Below are positions 9,598 to 19,028 of a stretch of 64,000 nucleotides of DNA, piece after piece (within the stretch, counting starts at the first letter, position 1; each line of letters begins with the position of its first letter). The notes under the pieces are model-generated. The model did no database searches. It had not been told where the DNA came from and was given only the letters and a program-made list of their open reading frames with translations. Source of the DNA: Bowmanella denitrificans (GTDB lineage: Bacteria; Pseudomonadota; Gammaproteobacteria; Enterobacterales; Alteromonadaceae). Made by a program: the position numbers and the translations under genes. The stretch spans positions 372,001-436,000 of the forward strand of contig NZ_PEBU01000001.1 of assembly GCF_002887595.1 (NCBI RefSeq), read 5' to 3'.

Positions 9598-10491
9598 ATG
9601 AGAATCTACAACCTGGGGTCCATCAACTGGGATCACTGCTACAGAGTTGAACACTTCGTTCGTCCAGGCGAAACCCTGATGTCCAGCGCTTATGCACTGC
9701 ACCTTGGCGGCAAGGGCGCAAATCAATCGGTGGCCGCTGCCAAAGCCGGTGGCCAGGTCATTCACATCGGTTGTGTTGCCAGCGCCGATTCAGCGCTCAG
9801 CAAGCTGCAGGAATTGGGTGTAGAGACCGGCGGTATCTACCAACAGGATCAGCACGCCACAGGTCACGCACTTATTCAGATTGATGACGAGGGCGAAAAC
9901 GCCATAATTTTGCATGCGGGCGCGAATCGGGCATTACAACAGGATTGGATAGCCAGCCAGTTGCAGTCAGCCGAAAAGCAGGATTGGTTGCTAATGCAAA
10001 ATGAAACCAACTTGCTGCATGAAAGCGCCACATTGGCCAGGCAAAAGGGTATGCAGGTCGCATTTAACCCGGCGCCAATGGACCGGGATTTAACCCTTAA
10101 TCTGTTGGATAAACTGGATCTATTAATTGTTAACCAGATTGAAGCTCAGGACTTAACTGGTGCGTCGGATCTGGATACAGCAATTGAAAGAATGCAGCAG
10201 CAAGCGCCAGATCTGGCATTGCTTATCACTCTGGGAGCAAAGGGCGCCTGTTATTGTCAGGGCAACCAGCGCCATAGCGTAAATGCGTTTAAGGTGGATG
10301 CAGTCGACACAACGGCTGCTGGAGATACCTTTATCGGCTATTTCCTGGCTAGTCTTACTGCCGGACTCGCGGTACCAGATGCGCTGCCCAGAGCCAGTGC
10401 TGCTGCCGCACTGGCGGTAACTCGTGCTGGCGCCATCCCCTCTATACCCAGTCGTCAGGAAGTCGATGATTTCCTGGCCAGACAACCATAA
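9598..10491 (+). CDS. PfkB-family carbohydrate kinase, ribokinase-like
   Basis: 297-aa cytoplasmic sugar kinase, probably phosphorylating D-ribose. PfkB signatures: the N-terminal GGKGANQSVAAAKAG (37-51) and the C-terminal DTTAAGDTF (237-245) with catalytic base Asp243. The next gene, 50 nt downstream on the same strand, is a nucleoside hydrolase, which releases ribose; ribokinase is therefore the likeliest function, although exact substrates within PfkB cannot be read from motifs alone. The 209-nt gap upstream separates it from divergent gabD. Confidence 0.85.
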   Translation: MRIYNLGSINWDHCYRVEHFVRPGETLMSSAYALHLGGKGANQSVAAAKAGGQVIHIGCVASADSALSKLQELGVETGGIYQQDQHATGHALIQIDDEGENAIILHAGANRALQQDWIASQLQSAEKQDWLLMQNETNLLHESATLARQKGMQVAFNPAPMDRDLTLNLLDKLDLLIVNQIEAQDLTGASDLDTAIERMQQQAPDLALLITLGAKGACYCQGNQRHSVNAFKVDAVDTTAAGDTFIGYFLASLTAGLAVPDALPRASAAAALAVTRAGAIPSIPSRQEVDDFLARQP

Positions 10492-10541
10492 TAATGCTTT
10501 GCGATGCTCAGGCTTCGCAGATTTAAAAGTAAGGAATGACA

Positions 10542-11486
10542 ATGAGCAGAAAAATTATCATCGACACGGATCCTGGGGTAGATGACGCCCTGGCTATCGT
10601 GATGGCGGCCAACTCTCCAGAATTAAATGTATTGGGTCTGACCACGGTATTCGGCAATGTCTCAGTAGAGCAGGCCACCACCAACGCACTGATACTGTCA
10701 GAGTTTGCCAGCTATGACATACCGGTTTACAAAGGCGAAGCCGTGCCAGTCACCCGAACTCCTGCCCCTTATGCTGACTTTGTGCATGGTGATGATGGAT
10801 TTGGCAATATCAACTGGCCTGAATCAGATAAACAAGCACAGACCCAACATGCCGTCGACTTTATCATTGAGCAGGTACGTAAGTATCCGGGTGAAGTGAC
10901 ATTGGTGCCGCTCGGTCCCCTGACTAATATCGCCCGTGTTCTGGAAAAAGCACCGGATGTGGCCGCCCTTGTCAAAGAGGTGGTGCTAATGGGCGGTGCA
11001 GCCCGCCATTGTGGCAACGTATCCCCCGTTGCCGAAGCCAATATTATGGGCGACCCCCATGCGGCAGATAAGGTTTTCACTGCAAATTGGCCAGTGGTCA
11101 TGATTGGTCTGGATGTCACCAGCCAGGTACTGCTTAAACATGACGATATGCAAAAAATCGCTCAGCTCAATCCCAAGCAGGGAGAATTCCTGCGTCAGGC
11201 ATGCGACTTCTACATTGACTTCTATCAGCAAACGCTGGGTATTGCAGGTTGTATGGTACATGACCCATCCACCATCGCTTATATTCTTGATCCTTCGCTG
11301 TTCGAAGTGGAACAAGGACGAATTCGTGTAGTGACGGACGGTCTGGCAATAGGTCAAACCACGTTTGCACCAGATGACAGGAAATTCCCCTACCCGGGCT
11401 GGGATAATCTGCCACAACAGAAAGTATGTATGAAAGTACGAGCGCAGGCCCTGCTGGATTTGGTGACTGGTCGTCTGAGTGCCTGA
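10542..11486 (+). CDS. Inosine/uridine-preferring nucleoside hydrolase
   Basis: Hydrolyses ribonucleosides to base and ribose. The N-terminal IIIDTDPGVDDALA (5-18) is the calcium-binding aspartate cluster of the IUNH family, with the later VVLMGGA and a second metal-site Asp region present. 314 aa. The ATG at 10542 is preferred because TAAGGA lies 6 nt upstream; an in-frame ATG at 10536 abuts that site. It forms an apparent two-gene salvage unit with the upstream kinase. Base preference (purine or pyrimidine) cannot be decided. Confidence 0.92.
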   Translation: MSRKIIIDTDPGVDDALAIVMAANSPELNVLGLTTVFGNVSVEQATTNALILSEFASYDIPVYKGEAVPVTRTPAPYADFVHGDDGFGNINWPESDKQAQTQHAVDFIIEQVRKYPGEVTLVPLGPLTNIARVLEKAPDVAALVKEVVLMGGAARHCGNVSPVAEANIMGDPHAADKVFTANWPVVMIGLDVTSQVLLKHDDMQKIAQLNPKQGEFLRQACDFYIDFYQQTLGIAGCMVHDPSTIAYILDPSLFEVEQGRIRVVTDGLAIGQTTFAPDDRKFPYPGWDNLPQQKVCMKVRAQALLDLVTGRLSA

Positions 11487-11515: not shown

Positions 11516-12328
11516 ATGAGTCCGCCGTCAGGGTCGTATAACACCTCAGACCCTTGTGATTTTGCCAGTTTGCTGGAACGTATTGCCGACGGCGACAGAG
11601 CGGCTGAACAAGAACTGGTGCATAGATTCTGGCGGGGGTTGCAATTTATATTGCATCGCCAGACTCAGGATCCTGAACTGGTGGCGGATATTTGTCAGGA
11701 CACCTTTGTTATTGTGCTGGAAAAAGCCAGGCGCGCAGAGATAGACAATCCCCTTGGCCTGGCAGCCTTTATCCATCAGGTTGGGCGCAATCTGCTTAGC
11801 GGATATTTTCGTAAAGAGAAGCGCCGCGCAACAGATTCGGCCGACTGGCTATTCACCGTGCCTGACCCTGGCATGGAGGTGTATCAACAGGTTTATGCCG
11901 ATAAAGTTGTTGGCTGGGTATCTGCAATGATGGACAGTCTGCCGACTGAACGTGATCGGGATATTTTACGCAGCTACTTTTTACATCAGCAAAGTAAGGC
12001 GGACATCTGTGCCCGCCTATCATTAGAAGCCGATCATTTTGATCGTATCCTGTCGCGGGCCAGACAAAGACTAAAGCAAGTCATACTGCATAAATTGCAG
12101 GACCCGGATAACAAGGTACCCAGTGGGGAAATTCCCGGCCTGTTGATATTGGCGTTGGCCATCAACACACCACACCTTGCCCAGCTACCCGATTTATTTT
12201 CAAACAAAGTGGGAGGAAATGCCGTCAGCCAACACCTTTTGACTGACACCTCTGCAAGCCGCTTCAAAACTGGCATGGATGTTTCGGAGGATATTACAGA
12301 CTCATCAGACAATGGAAGGACAGCATAA
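11516..12328 (+). CDS. ECF-type RNA polymerase sigma factor with C-terminal extension
   Basis: 270-aa sigma-70-family factor. Region 2 spans about 18-100 (LVADICQDTFVIVLEKA, then LAAFIHQVGRNLLSGYFRKEKRR), and a region-4 helix-turn-helix is near 135-190 (LPTERDRDILRSYFLHQ ... ADHFDRILSRARQRLKQ). It lacks region 1 and most of region 3, as in ECF factors. About 80 extra residues follow region 4, with a short hydrophobic patch (PGLLILALAI) and an acidic tail; this is longer than the usual ECF size near 180-200 aa. Its stop overlaps the start of the next gene by one base (TAATG), the usual coupling of a sigma factor with its anti-sigma factor. It probably controls its own cluster. Confidence 0.88.
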   Translation: MSPPSGSYNTSDPCDFASLLERIADGDRAAEQELVHRFWRGLQFILHRQTQDPELVADICQDTFVIVLEKARRAEIDNPLGLAAFIHQVGRNLLSGYFRKEKRRATDSADWLFTVPDPGMEVYQQVYADKVVGWVSAMMDSLPTERDRDILRSYFLHQQSKADICARLSLEADHFDRILSRARQRLKQVILHKLQDPDNKVPSGEIPGLLILALAINTPHLAQLPDLFSNKVGGNAVSQHLLTDTSASRFKTGMDVSEDITDSSDNGRTA

Positions 12329-12954
12329 TGGACATGGAATCCTTGCAAGTGCAGCAAGAAACGGCCTTGCGTTATTTAAGAGGCGAGCTATCAGAGCAGG
12401 AAAGCCAGGCATTTGAAATCTGGCTATTGGATAAACCCGATGTGGTGGAACAACTGGCGTTGGATCAAATGATGATTCAGGCACTGCCTGCTCAAGGACG
12501 GCGTGCTAAGCCTTTCATAAGCCTGGGTAAGTTGTTTTCTACACCAATCAGGGCCAGTCTTGTTACCCTGGCCTGCTGTTTGCTGGTTGGTGTTCTGAGC
12601 TGGCATGCCATGACGCCAACTCAATTTGCCGATGTTAATATTTTTTACCTGGAGCAAACCCGCAGTCAGAGCACGGCAGCCAACCATATACAAATACATG
12701 CAGGTCAGAGCCTGCTGGTATTGTCTGTTCAGCCGGTTAGCCCAGATAGTGCTTATCAGGTCGAGTTAAAGGCAATGGCGACCCAAAGCACCGTTGCCCA
12801 ATTTGAACATCTGGCCCCCCAACCTGATAGCGGTGAACTGACGTTATCTGTTCCCGTATCAAGACTGAAGGCCGGTGAATATAAGCTACTGTTAACGCCC
12901 GATGCGCATCAGCAACCACAGGTGTTTGACCTTATCCTGTCCAGAGTGGAATAA
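12328..12954 (+). CDS. Single-pass membrane anti-sigma-like protein
   Basis: 208 aa. The N-terminal cytoplasmic helices (ALRYLRGELSEQESQAFEIW, about 13-32) resemble the sigma-binding domain of anti-sigma factors but lack the zinc-binding His/Cys motif. One membrane helix lies at about 75-92 (ASLVTLACCLLVGVLSW). Residues 93-208 would be periplasmic and beta-rich. One-base overlap with the sigma gene. The role as anti-sigma factor is inferred from position, topology and the N-terminal helices. Confidence 0.72.
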   Translation: MDMESLQVQQETALRYLRGELSEQESQAFEIWLLDKPDVVEQLALDQMMIQALPAQGRRAKPFISLGKLFSTPIRASLVTLACCLLVGVLSWHAMTPTQFADVNIFYLEQTRSQSTAANHIQIHAGQSLLVLSVQPVSPDSAYQVELKAMATQSTVAQFEHLAPQPDSGELTLSVPVSRLKAGEYKLLLTPDAHQQPQVFDLILSRVE

Positions 12955-13018
12955 GCTCTGCTGCGAAATGCAAATTTAGCGCGCGTTGGGGGTTGGCAGA
13001 AATTTAAAGGAGACAATC

Positions 13019-14467
13019 TTGGCTCTTTCCCATGGACAACCACTCAACGGCCAGTTTTATTCACTATTTAACTTGCCTGCTACCCGCTATCAGAAGGCAG
13101 TGCTTATTGCATTAGGTGAAGCCATGAAACAGGCTTCGCCTTCAGGACGACAGCAAAAAGTAGCGGCTGGCTATGTCTACTTCGGCCAGTTTGTCGACCA
13201 TGATATTACCCGGCTCAAACGTGGCAGCGAACCTGCGGGTGATGCGCAACTCCCGATTGATCAACTGATTCAGGTGCGCACCCCGGCAATGGACCTGGAT
13301 TCAATATATGGACTGGGTTTTGCAGACCCCACAATCCCCTTGAATAAGGATACCGGAGAGCTATTGCTGGGCCATGCCATAGCAGACGATGGCCGACTGC
13401 TGGCTGGTGCAGATCTACCCAGAGTCAGCGCGGACAAACGCCCTCTGATTGGCGACGACCGCAATGATGAGAATCTGATTGTCGCACAGATGCACCTTAA
13501 GTTTATTAAGTTACATAACCGCTTTGTTCAGCATTACCGTCAACTGGAGCCTCGCAGCACACCCAGGCATTGGTACGACAACGCCAGGCAGTCCATGGTG
13601 CGATGTTATCAGGAGGCCGTCATTTATGATTTTATGCCGACCTTGATGGATGCCAGGGTGCTGCACCATCTGCTGCTGGACAAACAACCCGGGCTACTTA
13701 ATCCCATTGCTGCAGAAGAACCCCGTATCCCTTTAGAGTTCTCTGCTGCGGCTTATAGGTTTGGCCACTCCATGGTCAGATTCCGCTACACATTAAACTC
13801 TGGCAAAGCAGCAACATTACAAGAAATGTTTCAGATGACCGGCAAGGGCGGCATGCTGGGCAGTCCCTACCTTCCTGCAAGCTACTTGATTGACTGGGAC
13901 TTGTTCTTCCCACCCGCAGATCAAACTTTACCGCGGTTTTTCAATTTTGCTCTGGCCATAGATCCGTCTGTCGATGTGCGTCTGTCAGAAACCCAGGACC
14001 TGCACGTTAACCTGGCCGTACTCAATTTGCTCAGAGGTAATGAATTAGGGTTGCCGGATGGCCAGTCATTGGTACGGCATCTGTTCAAACAGCATGCACA
14101 ACTGGCCGAACGTATCGGCCTTCGCGAACTAACCGACCTGGAGTTAAACCCCGCCATACTGCGTGATGAAAATGGTCAGAAGCTGGGGATAATGGATGCG
14201 GTGGCCAGAACATTTCCGGCTCACGGCCTGACACACAAAACCCCGCTTTGGTATTACCTGCTGGCAGAGGCCGACAGTGTTGGTCAGGGGGTACGCATGG
14301 GACCGTTAGGCAGTTTAATCATCGCTGAAGTGTTGTTATCCCTTTGCCTGCAAAGCCATCCCTCCGTTTTACTGGAAACGGAAAGAGAAACATTCACTTG
14401 GTTGACCCGTAGCGGGCAATTTCTGGATAAAGCCGTTTATAAGATTGCCGACCTACTCAGACAATAA
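13019..14467 (+). CDS. Animal-type haem peroxidase (peroxinectin-like), cytoplasmic
   Basis: 482-aa member of the animal haem peroxidase superfamily. FGQFVDHDIT (55-64) carries the distal Gln57, Asp60 and His61; GDDRNDEN (145-152) carries the catalytic Arg148 and Glu151; YRFGHSMV supplies the proximal His250. Asp60 and Glu151 match the ester-linked haem residues of mammalian peroxidases; the Met of the third link is replaced by Asn152. TTG at 13019 is chosen as start because AAAGGAG lies 6 nt upstream; an in-frame TTG at 12986 lacks this. No signal peptide is visible, unlike most family members. It follows the anti-sigma-like gene by 64 nt and precedes the 121-aa gene by 22 nt, suggesting one operon. 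Confidence 0.85.
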   Translation: MALSHGQPLNGQFYSLFNLPATRYQKAVLIALGEAMKQASPSGRQQKVAAGYVYFGQFVDHDITRLKRGSEPAGDAQLPIDQLIQVRTPAMDLDSIYGLGFADPTIPLNKDTGELLLGHAIADDGRLLAGADLPRVSADKRPLIGDDRNDENLIVAQMHLKFIKLHNRFVQHYRQLEPRSTPRHWYDNARQSMVRCYQEAVIYDFMPTLMDARVLHHLLLDKQPGLLNPIAAEEPRIPLEFSAAAYRFGHSMVRFRYTLNSGKAATLQEMFQMTGKGGMLGSPYLPASYLIDWDLFFPPADQTLPRFFNFALAIDPSVDVRLSETQDLHVNLAVLNLLRGNELGLPDGQSLVRHLFKQHAQLAERIGLRELTDLELNPAILRDENGQKLGIMDAVARTFPAHGLTHKTPLWYYLLAEADSVGQGVRMGPLGSLIIAEVLLSLCLQSHPSVLLETERETFTWLTRSGQFLDKAVYKIADLLRQ

Positions 14468-14489
14468 GGCCTTTCAAAAGGAGAAAACT

Positions 14490-14855
14490 ATGTCCCTCGA
14501 ACAAAAGCTCAACATGTTTTGTGGCCAGTTTCACGCCCTGGGTGATCTTCCTGACACCACAGACCCCGCCAAAGAACCTTATTACCCTGCCGCGGGTACG
14601 CAAATTACCCTGAATAAAGTCAAGCGTTTTGGCCGCTGGGTGATTCAGATGGAGTCCAGTGACCCTTCTATCAATAGCGCCCTGTCCACCGCCAGCTTTT
14701 TCTTAATCGGCGAGCGACTGGTATCAACGCCGATTGAAATCCAACCGGGACTCTCCATGACAGAGGTTGTAGAATGGAATGCTACCGCGGATAAAATGAA
14801 TCATTACTTGTTATGGTCCGATGGCGAACTCGGCAATTGGAAGTGCACCCCCTGA
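14490..14855 (+). CDS. Hypothetical protein of the sigma-peroxidase-CHAT cluster
   Basis: 121 aa, family not recognised. AAAGGAG lies 6 nt before the ATG at 14490. The protein is soluble, without signal peptide, and beta-rich by eye, with YYPAAGTQITLNKVKRFGRW near 26-45 and Trp-rich segments (VVEWNATADKMNHYLLWSDG). Cys12 and Cys119 lie near the two ends. Its 3' end overlaps the possible ATG start of the CHAT gene by 43 nt (13 nt if the alternative GTG at 14843 is used), implying translational coupling. It may be a partner or substrate of the peroxidase or CHAT protein (inference). Confidence 0.7.
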   Translation: MSLEQKLNMFCGQFHALGDLPDTTDPAKEPYYPAAGTQITLNKVKRFGRWVIQMESSDPSINSALSTASFFLIGERLVSTPIEIQPGLSMTEVVEWNATADKMNHYLLWSDGELGNWKCTP

Positions 14856-17800
14856 AAAATGGATGGTGGCAGGGCGGCTTGTTCGCTCTGCTGCTTGTAT
14901 CACTGACATTAGATGCGCAAGGTTGTCCGGACTATTTAGGCCATCGCCCGTTATTGTCTCAGCAGCACATTAGCAGTCACTCACAACAGCCAACACTTTT
15001 GCAGTGGCAGCAATTGGACCTGGATATCACCCTGCATATCCAGACTCAGGCGCAAGACCTGACCCTGGATCAACCCGGTGGCCGCAGCAGCACTGAGTAT
15101 TTTTTTCTTCCCCCCGCCAGCCCCGCAATTCAAGCCTGCATCTATGCCAGTTTTGCGCATAGTGGCAAAGGTGACTGGCGCTTCAGTCAGGTCATACTGC
15201 CACCAGGCAATGATCTGGCTGGCAAACTGTTATCGCAGGCAGGACAGCTTTGGGCCGAAGAGCACACCGCCGCCAGAATACAAGCTTTAGCACTGTATGA
15301 GCGCGTTGCGGCGATGCACCAGGATGCGCCGGTACTTGCAAATTCAGCTGATCACCTATTGCTTCTTGCCTATGCACACCGTCATCAATTGGACAAAGCA
15401 ACCGCCAGGCTACAACACGCTCCCTTAGTGGAACTCCCTGAATTACTGCATAAAATGGCTGAACTTAGAGCTCGCATAGCGCTGGCCAAAGGGGATCTCA
15501 TACAAGCAGGACAATGGACAGATAAAGCCATTGCCGCAGCCGATAAGTTACAAAGGCGCAACGAAAAAGCAGAACTATTCACTCTGAAAGGCTTAATAGC
15601 TCTGCTAGCAGGCCAGCTTACTGAGGGTCAATCATATCTTAGCAACGCACAACAACTGGCTCCAGACGACTTCAAAATTCTGTCTTATGTACACAGTAAT
15701 CTGAGCTTTGCTGAACTGCAAAAATCCGTGGGAAAGCCCCAGTCAGACAGAAACAAGGCCATGGCTAAGGCGTTACAGTTCGAATTGCAGGCGGCGGATT
15801 ATGCCCGTCAGGCAGGCTTTTACCGCAACCTGGCCAATATCGAGAATAACATCGGCTCAATCCACGAACGTCATCGCGGTCTGCGTAGCGCCCTAGTTTA
15901 CTATACCCGGGCCTTGTCCAGAATTGAGCATAGGGATGAACCAGAACTTAAAGCGCTGCTGTTAAGAAACCTGGGCACGGTTAGTTTGTACCTGGGAGAT
16001 TATTTAAAAGCGCGGCAATTTTTATATGCGGCGTTGTCCATCATCGACAAAGCAGAACCTGTTGAAGCGGCATTACTGCATTGCAGAATCGGGCAATTGC
16101 ACGAAGCGCAGAATATGCCGGATGATGCTACCAATGCTTATCAAGATTGCCTGACCATGGCATTGGCGCTAAGTGATGCCAATCTCGAAGCGACAGCAAG
16201 GTTAGGGCTGATCACCACGGATGCTGTCAAGCAATTACATCAGATACAGGCACTGGCGAACAAGCTAAGCAATGCCGACCTGTCGACCAGGCTCAAAATG
16301 GCAGTGGCCAAGCAGCAAGCGGCAAACAATGATTGGCAATCCGCCACTGAGACTCTCGCACAAGCACAACACGATGCCGCCATCAGCCGGGATGCGACGC
16401 TGGAAATAGAGGTGCAGCACTTATCCAGCCAGATTCTGGCCGAACAGGGGCATTCAGAGGCAGCCATTGCAGCAGGGAATATGGCCATAAACGGGGTTGA
16501 ACAATTACATCAACATCTGGAAGCGCAACGATACGGCCCGGCCTGGAGTCATAAGACCAACAGCATCTATAACCTGCAGGCGCAGTTATTACTTAAGCAG
16601 CACAAAACAGCCGATGAAAAAGCTCCTGCACTGTTCAACTTAATTGAGCGATTTAAAGCCGTCAGCTTACGTCAGCACTTGCAAAAAACGCCGACAGGTT
16701 ACCCAAGTAGCAACGCTGATATGAATCAGGCCAGCGAACTTGCCGGATACAGTGCTGCTCAAAACAGCCAGGCCATGCCACTGGACTTCTACTTATTGGA
16801 AACCCTGCATAGTGGGCAAGTTTTGGGAGAATCACCTCAACAACCTCCCGAGTTGCTGGATATGACGCAAGTCCAGGCTAAACTTTCCCCCCGCCAGGCA
16901 ATATTGTATTACCTGGTATTGCCTCAACGCTTAGTCATACTCACCCTCACCAAGACCAGCCTGCACATGCAGCAGCAGGCATTGTCTGAGCATCAACTAA
17001 ATACCCTGATTGCCCAGGCCCGCAGCCAAATGGTGGAATTTAAGCAAATACACAGTAGTGCGATGACCGCATTAGCGTCGCTGATACCTGACGAGTTGGC
17101 AGACCAACAAGACATTACTGAGCTGATGCTGGTGCCACATGCTAATTTGCATATCTTACCTTTTGCTGCACTGCCGCTAAAGAATGGGACCAGACTGGGA
17201 GAGCGATTCGCCTTAACACGAATTCCTTCTGCCAATACGATTCTGCAGGCCAGACCCGTGCGACATGACAACGGCGAAATGGCATTCTTCGCCGATCCGC
17301 TGTTCTCCTCAGCAAGCACTGCAGCGCCAGAACAAGCCGTGTTTCGGAACTGGAGTGAGAGAGTCAGCCCGTTGCACTACACTGCAACAGAAGCCCGGGA
17401 TATTGCCCGGCTTTTCACCAATCAGAAGGCAACCTTATATGTGGGTGCCGAAGCAAACCGTCGTAACCTTTTTAGTGCCCAGGTACGCAACGCAAGAGTT
17501 CTGCATATTGCCACCCATGGCTATTTCAATCCCGTCAATCCCGACAATATGGGCTTTCAGTTAGCAGCATTGGATCAGTCAGGAATACCAATTGAAGGTT
17601 TTGTTACGCTACCTGAATTATTCAGCTATCCGTTTAGTAATGAATTGGTAGTCATCAATGGCTGTGATACGGCAATGGGTAAAGCCCAAACTGGGGAAGG
17701 TATGGTTGGACTGGTACATGGCTTTATGGCTCAGGGCACCAAACACGTTGTTTCAACCCTGTGGCCGGTGGCAGACAAGGCGTCCGCCTTGTTTATGCAG

Positions 17801-17959
17801 GCATTTTATCAGAGCCTGCTTACGCAGGGCTCACTGCCCGAAGCATTAAAAGATGCCCGCAGTCACCTTCGTCGCCATCCCAGATATCGTAGCCCTTATT
17901 ACTGGGCGCCTTATGTATTGCATTCCACTGTCCCTGATGTACAGATGCGATTTGAATAG
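14813..17959 (+). CDS. TPR-repeat CHAT-domain (caspase-like) protein
   Basis: 1048 aa if started at the ATG 14813; a GTG at 14843 is an alternative. The N-terminus has a signal-like segment GGLFALLLVSLTLDAQGC (about 21-38), suggesting export. About 150-640 is built of TPR helix pairs (KALALYERVAAMH-type units, e.g. AATARLGL, AALVYYTRALSRIE). The C-terminal CHAT domain (about 715-1045) has the catalytic His902 in LHIATHGYF and Cys951 in VVINGCDTAMG, then the diagnostic GEGMVGLVHGFMAQGTKHVV and TLWPV segments. CHAT is a caspase-like cysteine protease fold of Csx29/separase relatives. Last gene of the sigma-linked cluster; convergent with a patatin gene 15 nt away. Confidence 0.88.
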   Translation: MVRWRTRQLEVHPLKNGWWQGGLFALLLVSLTLDAQGCPDYLGHRPLLSQQHISSHSQQPTLLQWQQLDLDITLHIQTQAQDLTLDQPGGRSSTEYFFLPPASPAIQACIYASFAHSGKGDWRFSQVILPPGNDLAGKLLSQAGQLWAEEHTAARIQALALYERVAAMHQDAPVLANSADHLLLLAYAHRHQLDKATARLQHAPLVELPELLHKMAELRARIALAKGDLIQAGQWTDKAIAAADKLQRRNEKAELFTLKGLIALLAGQLTEGQSYLSNAQQLAPDDFKILSYVHSNLSFAELQKSVGKPQSDRNKAMAKALQFELQAADYARQAGFYRNLANIENNIGSIHERHRGLRSALVYYTRALSRIEHRDEPELKALLLRNLGTVSLYLGDYLKARQFLYAALSIIDKAEPVEAALLHCRIGQLHEAQNMPDDATNAYQDCLTMALALSDANLEATARLGLITTDAVKQLHQIQALANKLSNADLSTRLKMAVAKQQAANNDWQSATETLAQAQHDAAISRDATLEIEVQHLSSQILAEQGHSEAAIAAGNMAINGVEQLHQHLEAQRYGPAWSHKTNSIYNLQAQLLLKQHKTADEKAPALFNLIERFKAVSLRQHLQKTPTGYPSSNADMNQASELAGYSAAQNSQAMPLDFYLLETLHSGQVLGESPQQPPELLDMTQVQAKLSPRQAILYYLVLPQRLVILTLTKTSLHMQQQALSEHQLNTLIAQARSQMVEFKQIHSSAMTALASLIPDELADQQDITELMLVPHANLHILPFAALPLKNGTRLGERFALTRIPSANTILQARPVRHDNGEMAFFADPLFSSASTAAPEQAVFRNWSERVSPLHYTATEARDIARLFTNQKATLYVGAEANRRNLFSAQVRNARVLHIATHGYFNPVNPDNMGFQLAALDQSGIPIEGFVTLPELFSYPFSNELVVINGCDTAMGKAQTGEGMVGLVHGFMAQGTKHVVSTLWPVADKASALFMQAFYQSLLTQGSLPEALKDARSHLRRHPRYRSPYYWAPYVLHSTVPDVQMRFE

Positions 17960-17974
17960 GGCGTGTTAACCCAA

Positions 17975-18892
17975 TCACGCCATTCTTCGCTCATCTTTAT
18001 TCCATTGACGCAAAAAGCGCTGTCCCTCTCTTCGGCCAATCAGATAATCCAGTTTAAGGGCCTGCGGCGGAGAACCCAGCACTAAACTACGCAACTCTTG
18101 CGGTGGCGCTATTTGCCATACCTGCACGCCATCCGGTGGCTGATTGATAAAAGCTAACGCATCAGCATACTGACGCTGATAATGTAAATACATTTCCATC
18201 ATTCTCGGCGAATGACGCACCTTCTTCAGCAAGGGTTTGAGCCTTTCCAGTAAAGGTACCTGCCCTGAGTAGTCGGCCGCTACCGTGCGAATCACCACAA
18301 TACGTTTGGCTCCCTGAGCATGAGCCCAGCGTACCGGCAGCGGGTCTGCCACTCCGCCATCTACCAATTGCCTTCCTTCCAGCCAAACACCGGGCCGATA
18401 CAGAAATGGAATGGCACTGGAGGCTTTCAGATGATGAAAAAGATTACTGTTATTGGTTGGCAGATAGACCGGCTGAAAGTCGGCAGCATCGGTGGCAACA
18501 GCATAGAAACCCGATTCCCCATTCAGATGACTCACATCGGTTGGAAAACGCATCTCGCCCTGTTCCTGCACCTGACGAAAATACCAGTCAAGATCAATAA
18601 CATTGCCGCCCATAAAAAACTTGGCCGGTCGAAAAAAATCCTGCTTAGTGGTCAAGTGCTGTATGGCCTGACTGGCATATTGCCTAGCCCTGGCACTGAA
18701 TGCGGCCAGATTCTGCGCGCCGGCAGAGACGCCAATTTTAAGATCAAAAGGCCAGAATTGTTGTTCTAAAAATGCATCCAGTACACCAGCTGTAAAGATA
18801 CCTTTCTGCCCCCCACCTTCAGCCACCAAGGCAAAAGCAGGGCCGACCTCAGTGTTACTTTGCAATGCTAATCCTTGGTTTTTCTCTTCCAT
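17975..18892 (-). CDS. Patatin-like phospholipase, YjjU type
   Basis: 305-aa patatin-family hydrolase. Oxyanion motif GGGQKG at 26-31, nucleophile elbow GVSAG at 54-58 (Ser56), and catalytic DGG at 178-180 are intact. Flanking phrases such as GIFTAGVLDAF, FDLKIGVSAGAQNL and GGNVIDLDW closely resemble enterobacterial YjjU, a predicted lipid-acyl hydrolase. ATG at 18892 is chosen; the frame extends to a TTG at 18928 without a ribosome site. Convergent with the CHAT gene, so it is not in that operon. Confidence 0.87.
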   Translation of the reverse strand: MEEKNQGLALQSNTEVGPAFALVAEGGGQKGIFTAGVLDAFLEQQFWPFDLKIGVSAGAQNLAAFSARARQYASQAIQHLTTKQDFFRPAKFFMGGNVIDLDWYFRQVQEQGEMRFPTDVSHLNGESGFYAVATDAADFQPVYLPTNNSNLFHHLKASSAIPFLYRPGVWLEGRQLVDGGVADPLPVRWAHAQGAKRIVVIRTVAADYSGQVPLLERLKPLLKKVRHSPRMMEMYLHYQRQYADALAFINQPPDGVQVWQIAPPQELRSLVLGSPPQALKLDYLIGRREGQRFLRQWNKDERRMA

Positions 18893-19028
18893 AGTCTTAA
18901 TGGTTAGGGACAAAAGTGACAGATTCAAGACAACATAAGCATTTTGCGCAAAAAGATTGATTAGAGCGCATTGACCGCCATATGAGCCAGACTCTAAAGT
19001 GATGGGCTATAACAACAGGAGAACAATA

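Follow-up and report, generated by a model that had tools for sequence, protein, structure and literature searches.

A stretch of 64,000 nucleotides (nt) from Bowmanella denitrificans (contig NZ_PEBU01000001.1 of assembly GCF_002887595.1, forward-strand positions 372,001-436,000), called the window here, carries at 11516-17959 a cassette of five genes, all on the + strand, for an extracytoplasmic function (ECF) type sigma factor, a membrane anti-sigma-like protein, an animal-type haem peroxidase, an orphan protein, and a TPR-CHAT protein. As judged by comparison of genomes, this cassette is real, conserved, and no chance grouping. Within it, the peroxidase, the orphan, and the CHAT protein form a payload that seems to be a separate module, judging from the trees of its genes. 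The reading that we prefer, tentatively and at somewhat less than an even chance, is that of a two-module cassette controlled by an envelope signal. The features are as follows.

11516-12328, + strand: ECF-type sigma factor, 270 amino acids (aa) (Pfam Sigma70_r2, NCBIfam sigma70-ECF)
12328-12954, + strand: membrane anti-sigma-like protein, 208 aa (hydropathy, AlphaFold2 (AF2) model, fold search, weak NCBIfam match)
12661-12663, + strand: codon of anti-sigma R112, candidate cleavage site (invariant in 39/39)
13019-14467, + strand: animal-type haem peroxidase, 482 aa (PF03098, active-site columns, PDB profile matches)
14490-14855, + strand: orphan, predicted calycin/FABP-like beta-barrel, 121 aa (AF2, Foldseek, VIA, fusions)
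14813-17959, + strand: TPR-CHAT protease, predicted exported, 1048 aa (Pfam CHAT and TPR_1, N-terminus, Cys pairs)
14813-14923, + strand: signal-peptide-like CHAT N-terminus, residues 1-37, before Cys38 (hydropathy; start codon uncertain)
17516-17518, + strand: codon of the CHAT catalytic His, H902 (His in 38/38 CHATs besides the remnant L179)
17663-17665, + strand: codon of the CHAT catalytic Cys, C951 (Cys in 38/38 CHATs besides the remnant L179)

A preliminary description of this DNA had called five same-strand genes with their gaps and overlaps, and an open reading frame (ORF) analysis bears these calls out. The sigma and anti-sigma-like ORFs overlap by 1 nt. The peroxidase starts at a TTG (13019) with AAGGAGA just 5' of it, 64 nt behind the anti-sigma-like gene, and the orphan starts at an ATG (14490) after a gap of 22 nt, while the TPR-CHAT frame opens at 14813 and overlaps the orphan by 43 nt. 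The second and fourth genes (anti-sigma-like protein and orphan) match no Pfam family. That the genes form one operon-like unit, as had been proposed, is supported by 28 loci picked for having sigma, peroxidase, and CHAT genes (L165 and L166 are near copies): all 28 are single-strand clusters, 25 in the window order, 2 with an orphan-peroxidase fusion, and 1 rotated, and their intergenic gaps, measured from longest-ORF starts, are mostly below 60 nt.

The preliminary description would have fallen had the five genes rarely stayed together in other genomes, but together they do stay. In 98 related genomes the peroxidase was found at 15 places, and all 11 with E ≤ 2e-14 adjoin this sigma subfamily; the remaining four (E 4e-7 to 7e-6) are longer and not linked to it. 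A sigma profile (A2, built from 14 sigmas, threshold E ≤ 1e-25) located 37 places in 30 of the 295 genomes of the family, about a tenth. All five components are present at 26 of these 37 loci (in 24 the orphan is a gene of its own, in 2 it forms a fusion with the peroxidase), and at 34 a CHAT gene, or what is left of one, lies near the sigma. Among the other loci, five consist of CHAT, sigma, and anti-sigma genes without a peroxidase; two (L185 and L183) have a CHAT near the sigma-anti-sigma pair and lack an intact peroxidase, the CHAT of L183 lying on the opposite strand about 1.3 kb away; one (L179) retains only a CHAT remnant; one is cut off within the orphan by the end of its contig; and two have no CHAT beside the sigma, one being on a 4.4-kb contig and the other having a CHAT about 9 kb off. 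At L185 (7504-7908, G647:C14) a short gene between the anti-sigma gene and the intact CHAT gene appears, by eye, to join an N-terminal peroxidase stub to an orphan-like C-terminus, which reads as a natural loss of the peroxidase core. Of 20 CHAT matches in the family sample, 12 lie in such sigma-linked loci. Beyond the family the sigma subfamily is rare, with 7 of 369 genomes in a class sample and 6 of 398 in a phylum sample, the window's own genome being counted in both.

One chromosomal site in the genus shows the whole block as present in two species and absent in three. The order there is a sugar-kinase-like gene, a nucleoside hydrolase gene, the cassette, a patatin-like gene in some genomes, and an M20 peptidase gene. 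G000 and G004 hold all five genes, G001 and G002 have the hydrolase directly followed by the peptidase, and G003 has hydrolase, patatin, and peptidase. No flanking repeats were seen at both ends of the cassette in the window, and no GC shift marks an insertion there. The patatin-like gene itself (17975-18928, 3' of the cassette) has weak PADLOC matches to phospholipase effectors (best E 6.3e-5) and occurs in G003 without the cassette. The window's genome also contains a second, strongly diverged five-gene cassette followed by a 210-aa protein (L048, G000:C3:170500-184500); its peroxidase, one of the 11 strong places, is 32% identical to that of the window.

To see which parts travel together, tree distances were compared over 27 cassettes with 500 permutations. 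The peroxidase and CHAT trees agree closely (rho 0.765, permutation maximum 0.312), and sigma and anti-sigma agree as well (0.633, maximum 0.522). The sigma follows neither the peroxidase (0.182, maximum 0.314) nor the CHAT (0.240, maximum 0.290), and the anti-sigma follows the peroxidase (0.237, maximum 0.204) and the CHAT (0.344, maximum 0.312) slightly above chance. A repeat on 21 representatives without near-copies (1000 permutations) gave 0.827 for peroxidase and CHAT (0/1000 reach it), 0.516 for sigma and anti-sigma (1/1000), 0.254 for anti-sigma and peroxidase (8/1000), and 0.131 for sigma and peroxidase (106/1000). Without L188, L069, and L055 the same pairs gave 0.774 (0/1000), 0.415 (8/1000), 0.202 (47/1000), and 0.100 (216/1000), respectively. 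Three groups from the first CHAT and peroxidase trees recur in both (SH-aLRT 99/98/92 and 99/96/86), with L055 and L188 falling outside them. The sigma data reject group 1 (p 0.015 in the approximately unbiased (AU) test) and group 3 (0.029), not group 2 (0.118); the anti-sigma data reject group 1 (AU p 0.011), not group 3 (0.209), and their tree comes close to recovering group 2 (p 0.474; 2 changes, a value that 0/500 shuffles attain). Branches in the trees are long, and the sigma and anti-sigma signal is weak. Because the peroxidase and CHAT trees agree so closely and the regulators only loosely, the peroxidase, the CHAT, and probably the orphan would travel as a unit against which the sigma has largely, and the anti-sigma partly, been recombined. 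Two fully separate modules would be too strong a statement, as the anti-sigma is weakly tied to the CHAT and its tree nearly recovers group 2. The related idea of a CHAT tuned to the regulator pair is weak: the anti-sigma is followed weakly, the sigma not beyond chance, and the CHAT follows the peroxidase closely.

These trees also speak for another reading, in which sigma and anti-sigma merely switch the operon on, the CHAT plays no part in freeing the sigma, and peroxidase, barrel, and CHAT act jointly on an invader, a competitor, or a damaged envelope as a conflict or self-killing device. We consider this possible, although rather unlikely. Besides the close peroxidase-CHAT agreement and the diverging sigma and most of the anti-sigma signal, it draws on the patchy presence of the block and on two loci: L068 (Povalibacter uvarum) has the peroxidase-orphan-CHAT trio with no match to this sigma subfamily in 17 kb, and L069 (a Rhodospirillales metagenome-assembled genome) has all five genes in the rotated order peroxidase-orphan-CHAT-sigma-anti-sigma. 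It is opposed by the five loci of the family sample where the CHAT stays with the sigma in the absence of a peroxidase, and by the anti-sigma-CHAT signal weakly above chance, which hints at a direct link. Also against it, the sole PADLOC match among the five genes is to BovA (E 1e-10), covering part of the CHAT domain, and nothing seen here points to phages or toxins.

The CHAT protein itself contains a clear CHAT domain (PF12770, E 2.6e-60, 204.8 bits vs. a cut-off of 24) and a TPR_1 match (E 1.1e-7), and all relatives but the remnant L179 (38/39) keep the dyad H902 and C951. Domain and His-Cys dyad together mark it as a putative protease, and the earlier claim of an intact catalytic CHAT tied to an ECF sigma/anti-sigma pair is upheld. 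An uncharged hydrophobic 12-mer occurs at the N-terminus of 32 of 37 CHATs, compared with 0/30 peroxidases, 0/27 orphans, and 0/36 sigmas (L179 and L062 were left out; four of the five CHATs below the threshold are just under it and the fifth, L059, starts at the locus edge), a reading made from hydropathy. The window CHAT has five cysteines (38, 109, 424, 446, and the catalytic 951), and Cys424 and Cys446 occur together in 14 of 39 relatives, are both missing in 25 (two by gaps), and are never found singly, the pattern that a disulfide would give. These 14 are mainly one CHAT group and its near-copies plus L055, so the gain or loss reflects few independent events. Hydrophobic N-termini and paired cysteines argue for export, and the TPR-CHAT protein is predicted to be exported. 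In L062 (G097:C2), genes for a 615-aa protein and for a distinct CHAT-domain protein of 442 aa come after the sigma and anti-sigma genes, as if the TPR and CHAT halves had been split or a frameshift had occurred.

Predicted export bears directly on a mechanism in which a cytosolic CHAT, on an oxidative signal, cuts the anti-sigma or the 121-aa orphan and so frees the sigma, as in Craspase. The nearest solved CHATs by sequence are indeed TPR-CHAT/Csx29-type entries (7zoq, E 1.4e-5), which we take to be Csx29, and in Craspase the Csx29 protease cuts Csx30, an inhibitor of the sigma (PMC10028731). The five genes and six flanking genes, however, gave no CRISPR-type or Cas match in PADLOC, and no Cas7-11 or Csx30 domain was found by Pfam in the seven genes scanned, a result that concerns this locus only. 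The orphan also does not look like a protease target. Its AF2 model is a calycin/FABP-like barrel (best predicted local distance difference test (pLDDT) score 83), in agreement with Foldseek and VIA searches; in two genomes it is fused to the C-terminus of the peroxidase; and its C-terminal types follow the CHAT/peroxidase groups by eye. A predicted calycin-type barrel with such fusions looks like a partner of the peroxidase. A Craspase-like cytosolic CHAT is therefore quite improbable, and neither it nor the orphan as its substrate, both entertained in the preliminary description, is supported.

The peroxidase matches An_peroxidase (PF03098, E 4e-22), and PDB profiles of lactoperoxidase, eosinophil peroxidase, myeloperoxidase, peroxinectin, and dual oxidase match it. 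Q57, H61, R148, R247, and H250 are present in 30/30 relatives and N336 in 28/30. Apart from R247, these columns presumably represent the distal Gln, His, and Arg, the proximal His, and the Asn of the animal haem peroxidases, the roles being assigned with the help of the PDB-profile alignment, and they place the protein, by its residues, in that class. D60 (7/30) and E151 (18/30), which we take to be the positions of the covalent-haem Asp and Glu, are not conserved. Like the bacterial members of the peroxidase-cyclooxygenase superfamily, the protein has the complete active site; it differs from them in its fixed orphan and CHAT partners and has no signal-like N-terminus. Genes for envelope or oxidative stress are frequent targets of ECF sigmas, and the cassette could accordingly be an ordinary oxidative-stress operon in which the sigma induces a detoxifying peroxidase and the CHAT rides along as a quality-control protease. 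In keeping with this, 77 of 80 related peroxidase loci (a subset of at least 540 relatives, several on short contigs) have no CHAT or sigma match, the exceptions being L068, L069, and L078 (Aestuariibacter sp. AA17). Yet the five-part content, the orphan fusion, and the peroxidase-CHAT co-inheritance are more specific than such an operon needs, and the sigma occurs in only 30 of the 295 family genomes, which makes this explanation unlikely.

The sigma matches Pfam Sigma70_r2 (E 2.8e-6, over the cut-off) with a weak region 4 (E 0.0094), and NCBIfam sigma70-ECF over residues 31-188 (50.8 bits vs. a cut-off of 42.9). With regions 2 and 4 and no region 3, it can be classed by sequence as an ECF sigma. 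A C-terminal extension of about 75 aa (residues ~195-270) contains a hydrophobic stretch (alignment A2, hydropathy) and, in many relatives, a VRE-x5-H-like signature; it is missing in the peroxidase-linked L058, L069, and L188 and in the CHAT-sigma-anti-sigma loci L059 and L060. The extension may or may not be a true membrane helix: its hydropathy is moderate, and the three peroxidase-linked loci lack it. The second gene product has an N-terminal helical part, one membrane helix (~74-92, hydropathy), and a predicted periplasmic immunoglobulin (Ig) like beta-sandwich with a confident core from about residue 114-130 (AF2, fold search), and the anti-sigmas of relatives likewise have one hydrophobic helix each, the L050 entry in that hydropathy comparison being disregarded as a wrong reading frame. 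Context, membrane topology, and a weak NCBIfam match (E 0.014) make it anti-sigma-like, and its predicted topology and fold are consistent with a class I membrane anti-sigma. R112 is its only invariant periplasmic residue (39/39) and is followed by S or G in 38/39; it belongs to an (E/D)xxR-(S/G) site that borders the Ig-like domain some 20 residues beyond the membrane helix, and 39 of 50 VIA alignments of the model begin at residue 112 or later.

Our preferred two-module reading arranges these observations as follows. In the first module, the ECF sigma would be held by the single-pass anti-sigma, whose Ig-like domain stands in the periplasm. The second would pair a haem peroxidase in the cytosol with a calycin-like barrel that binds small molecules, and would add a periplasmic TPR-CHAT protease, exported by Sec and braced by disulfides. 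Gene content and order, the presence or absence of the block, the intact active sites, and the co-inheritance of peroxidase and CHAT are read from the sequences, whereas membrane topology, export, disulfides, and the barrel fold are predictions. On an envelope signal the anti-sigma would be cut shortly after its membrane helix, R112-S113 being the best candidate site, and the freed sigma would transcribe the five-gene block. The peroxidase-barrel pair may then make or handle an oxidised small hydrophobic or halogenated compound, and the CHAT may process envelope proteins. It is possible that the periplasmic CHAT also cuts the anti-sigma, giving positive feedback; the weak anti-sigma-CHAT link and the CHAT-sigma-anti-sigma loci without a peroxidase point weakly that way. 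In the most elaborate version, which we regard as doubtful, a separase-like exported CHAT cuts the anti-sigma after R112 and frees the sigma, which in turn raises CHAT, a myeloperoxidase-like enzyme, and an FABP-like barrel, making a self-amplifying switch.

Several observations weigh against this reading, some of them against the CHAT as the anti-sigma protease. The peroxidase-CHAT link is much stronger than the anti-sigma-CHAT link, which in the 21 representatives is only weak (0.356, reached by 1/1000) and without L188, L069, and L055 falls to 0.204 (24/1000); for sigma and CHAT the values, 0.170 (79/1000) and 0.242 (19/1000), exceed chance hardly or not at all. Two sigma/anti-sigma pairs of G461 (L193 and L194) keep R112-S with no CHAT in 17-18 kb, the CHATs of that genome lying on other contigs, so the site may have a structural role or be the target of a different protease; as a mark exclusive to CHAT, R112 is weakened. 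An exported CHAT and a signal-less peroxidase and orphan would also sit in different compartments despite the peroxidase-CHAT co-evolution, which the model leaves unexplained and which is its weak point. Self-activation of the sigma is unsupported: when gapped motifs were counted at 28 sigma starts, in stretches of 250 nt that extend 220 nt upstream (near-copies L166 and L169 left out, one stretch shorter at a contig start), no shared promoter motif rose above shuffles (best 10/28, shuffle maxima 8-11). A sigma-70 promoter scan (6 vs. 9.6 expected) and a terminator scan (11 vs. 8.9 expected) gave no signal either. Sugar-kinase-like and nucleoside-hydrolase genes occupy 9598-11486 of the window and end 29 nt 5' of the sigma start, so that transcription of that operon may run on into the cassette. 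The barrel model was built on 4 sequences, and its five models span pLDDT 83 to 49. As for specificity, D988 of the CHAT lies in a TLWxVxD block (37/38) that separases match (by table only), 37 residues after Cys951; in human separase the S1 Asp2070 and the mutated Cys2029 are 41 apart (among PMC10317155, PMC12609080, and PMC4626109). The proposal that D988 is an S1 aspartate proving Arg specificity was dropped, and D988 is at most a candidate for a counterpart of the separase P1-Arg aspartate.

Three known systems frame the comparison. Regulated anti-sigma proteolysis of the RseA/DegS/RseP type shares with the cassette the ECF sigma and the single-pass anti-sigma, and the invariant Arg of the cassette stands shortly after the membrane helix, at the place expected for a site-1 cut. 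The cassette differs in that the part of the site-1 protease would fall to a CHAT cysteine protease and not to a PDZ serine protease. To our knowledge, the peroxidase-barrel-CHAT trio has no counterpart. Separase (clan CD, C50) has the caspase-like catalytic domain in common and cuts a (D/E)xxR motif that the anti-sigma site resembles (PMC10317155, PMC12609080, PMC4626109), although its sequence match to the CHAT is weak (E 0.13-0.16) and its compartment is another. In Craspase (type III-E CRISPR, with Cas7-11, Csx29, Csx30, and CASP-sigma), a TPR-CHAT protein is likewise genetically tied to an ECF-type sigma and its inhibitor (PMC10028731). The cassette has the same combination, its inhibitor presumably being the anti-sigma-like protein, but here the inhibitor is a single-pass membrane protein, the CHAT is predicted to be exported and co-evolves chiefly with the peroxidase, and a peroxidase and a barrel are added.

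ECF/anti-sigma pairs and, from Craspase, CHAT-sigma links are thus already known; among the literature matches listed, the Craspase paper is the only one that joins CHAT, sigma, anti-sigma, and TPR (PMC10028731). No description of the five-part set was found among the matches listed in a literature search that took in few subscription papers, which agrees with the preliminary statement that no described system with this exact set is known. The cassette joins caspase/separase-like proteases, ECF signalling, and animal-type haem peroxidases, which are rarely discussed together, and it suggests that the control of sigma factors by CHAT proteases may extend beyond CRISPR and beyond the cytosol. 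It offers R112 as a concrete candidate cleavage site, a peroxidase-calycin pair joined naturally by fusion, and 28 natural variants for comparison. If the self-amplifying switch were true, the FABP-like barrel would carry an oxidised hydrophobic product of the peroxidase, and the cassette would amount to a counterpart of Craspase that needs no RNA, works outside the cytoplasm, and has a bacterial myeloperoxidase as its payload.

Two further loci were observed along the way. At L191 (G461:C5), a sigma of the subfamily has a TIR-domain protein and a DUF4062 protein close by, which may point to defence. L204 (6159-10102, G027:C4) is another same-strand ECF-CHAT cluster, with a 174-aa ECF sigma that does not match the profile of this subfamily, a 140-aa gene, and a TPR-CHAT gene whose product has a signal-like N-terminus.

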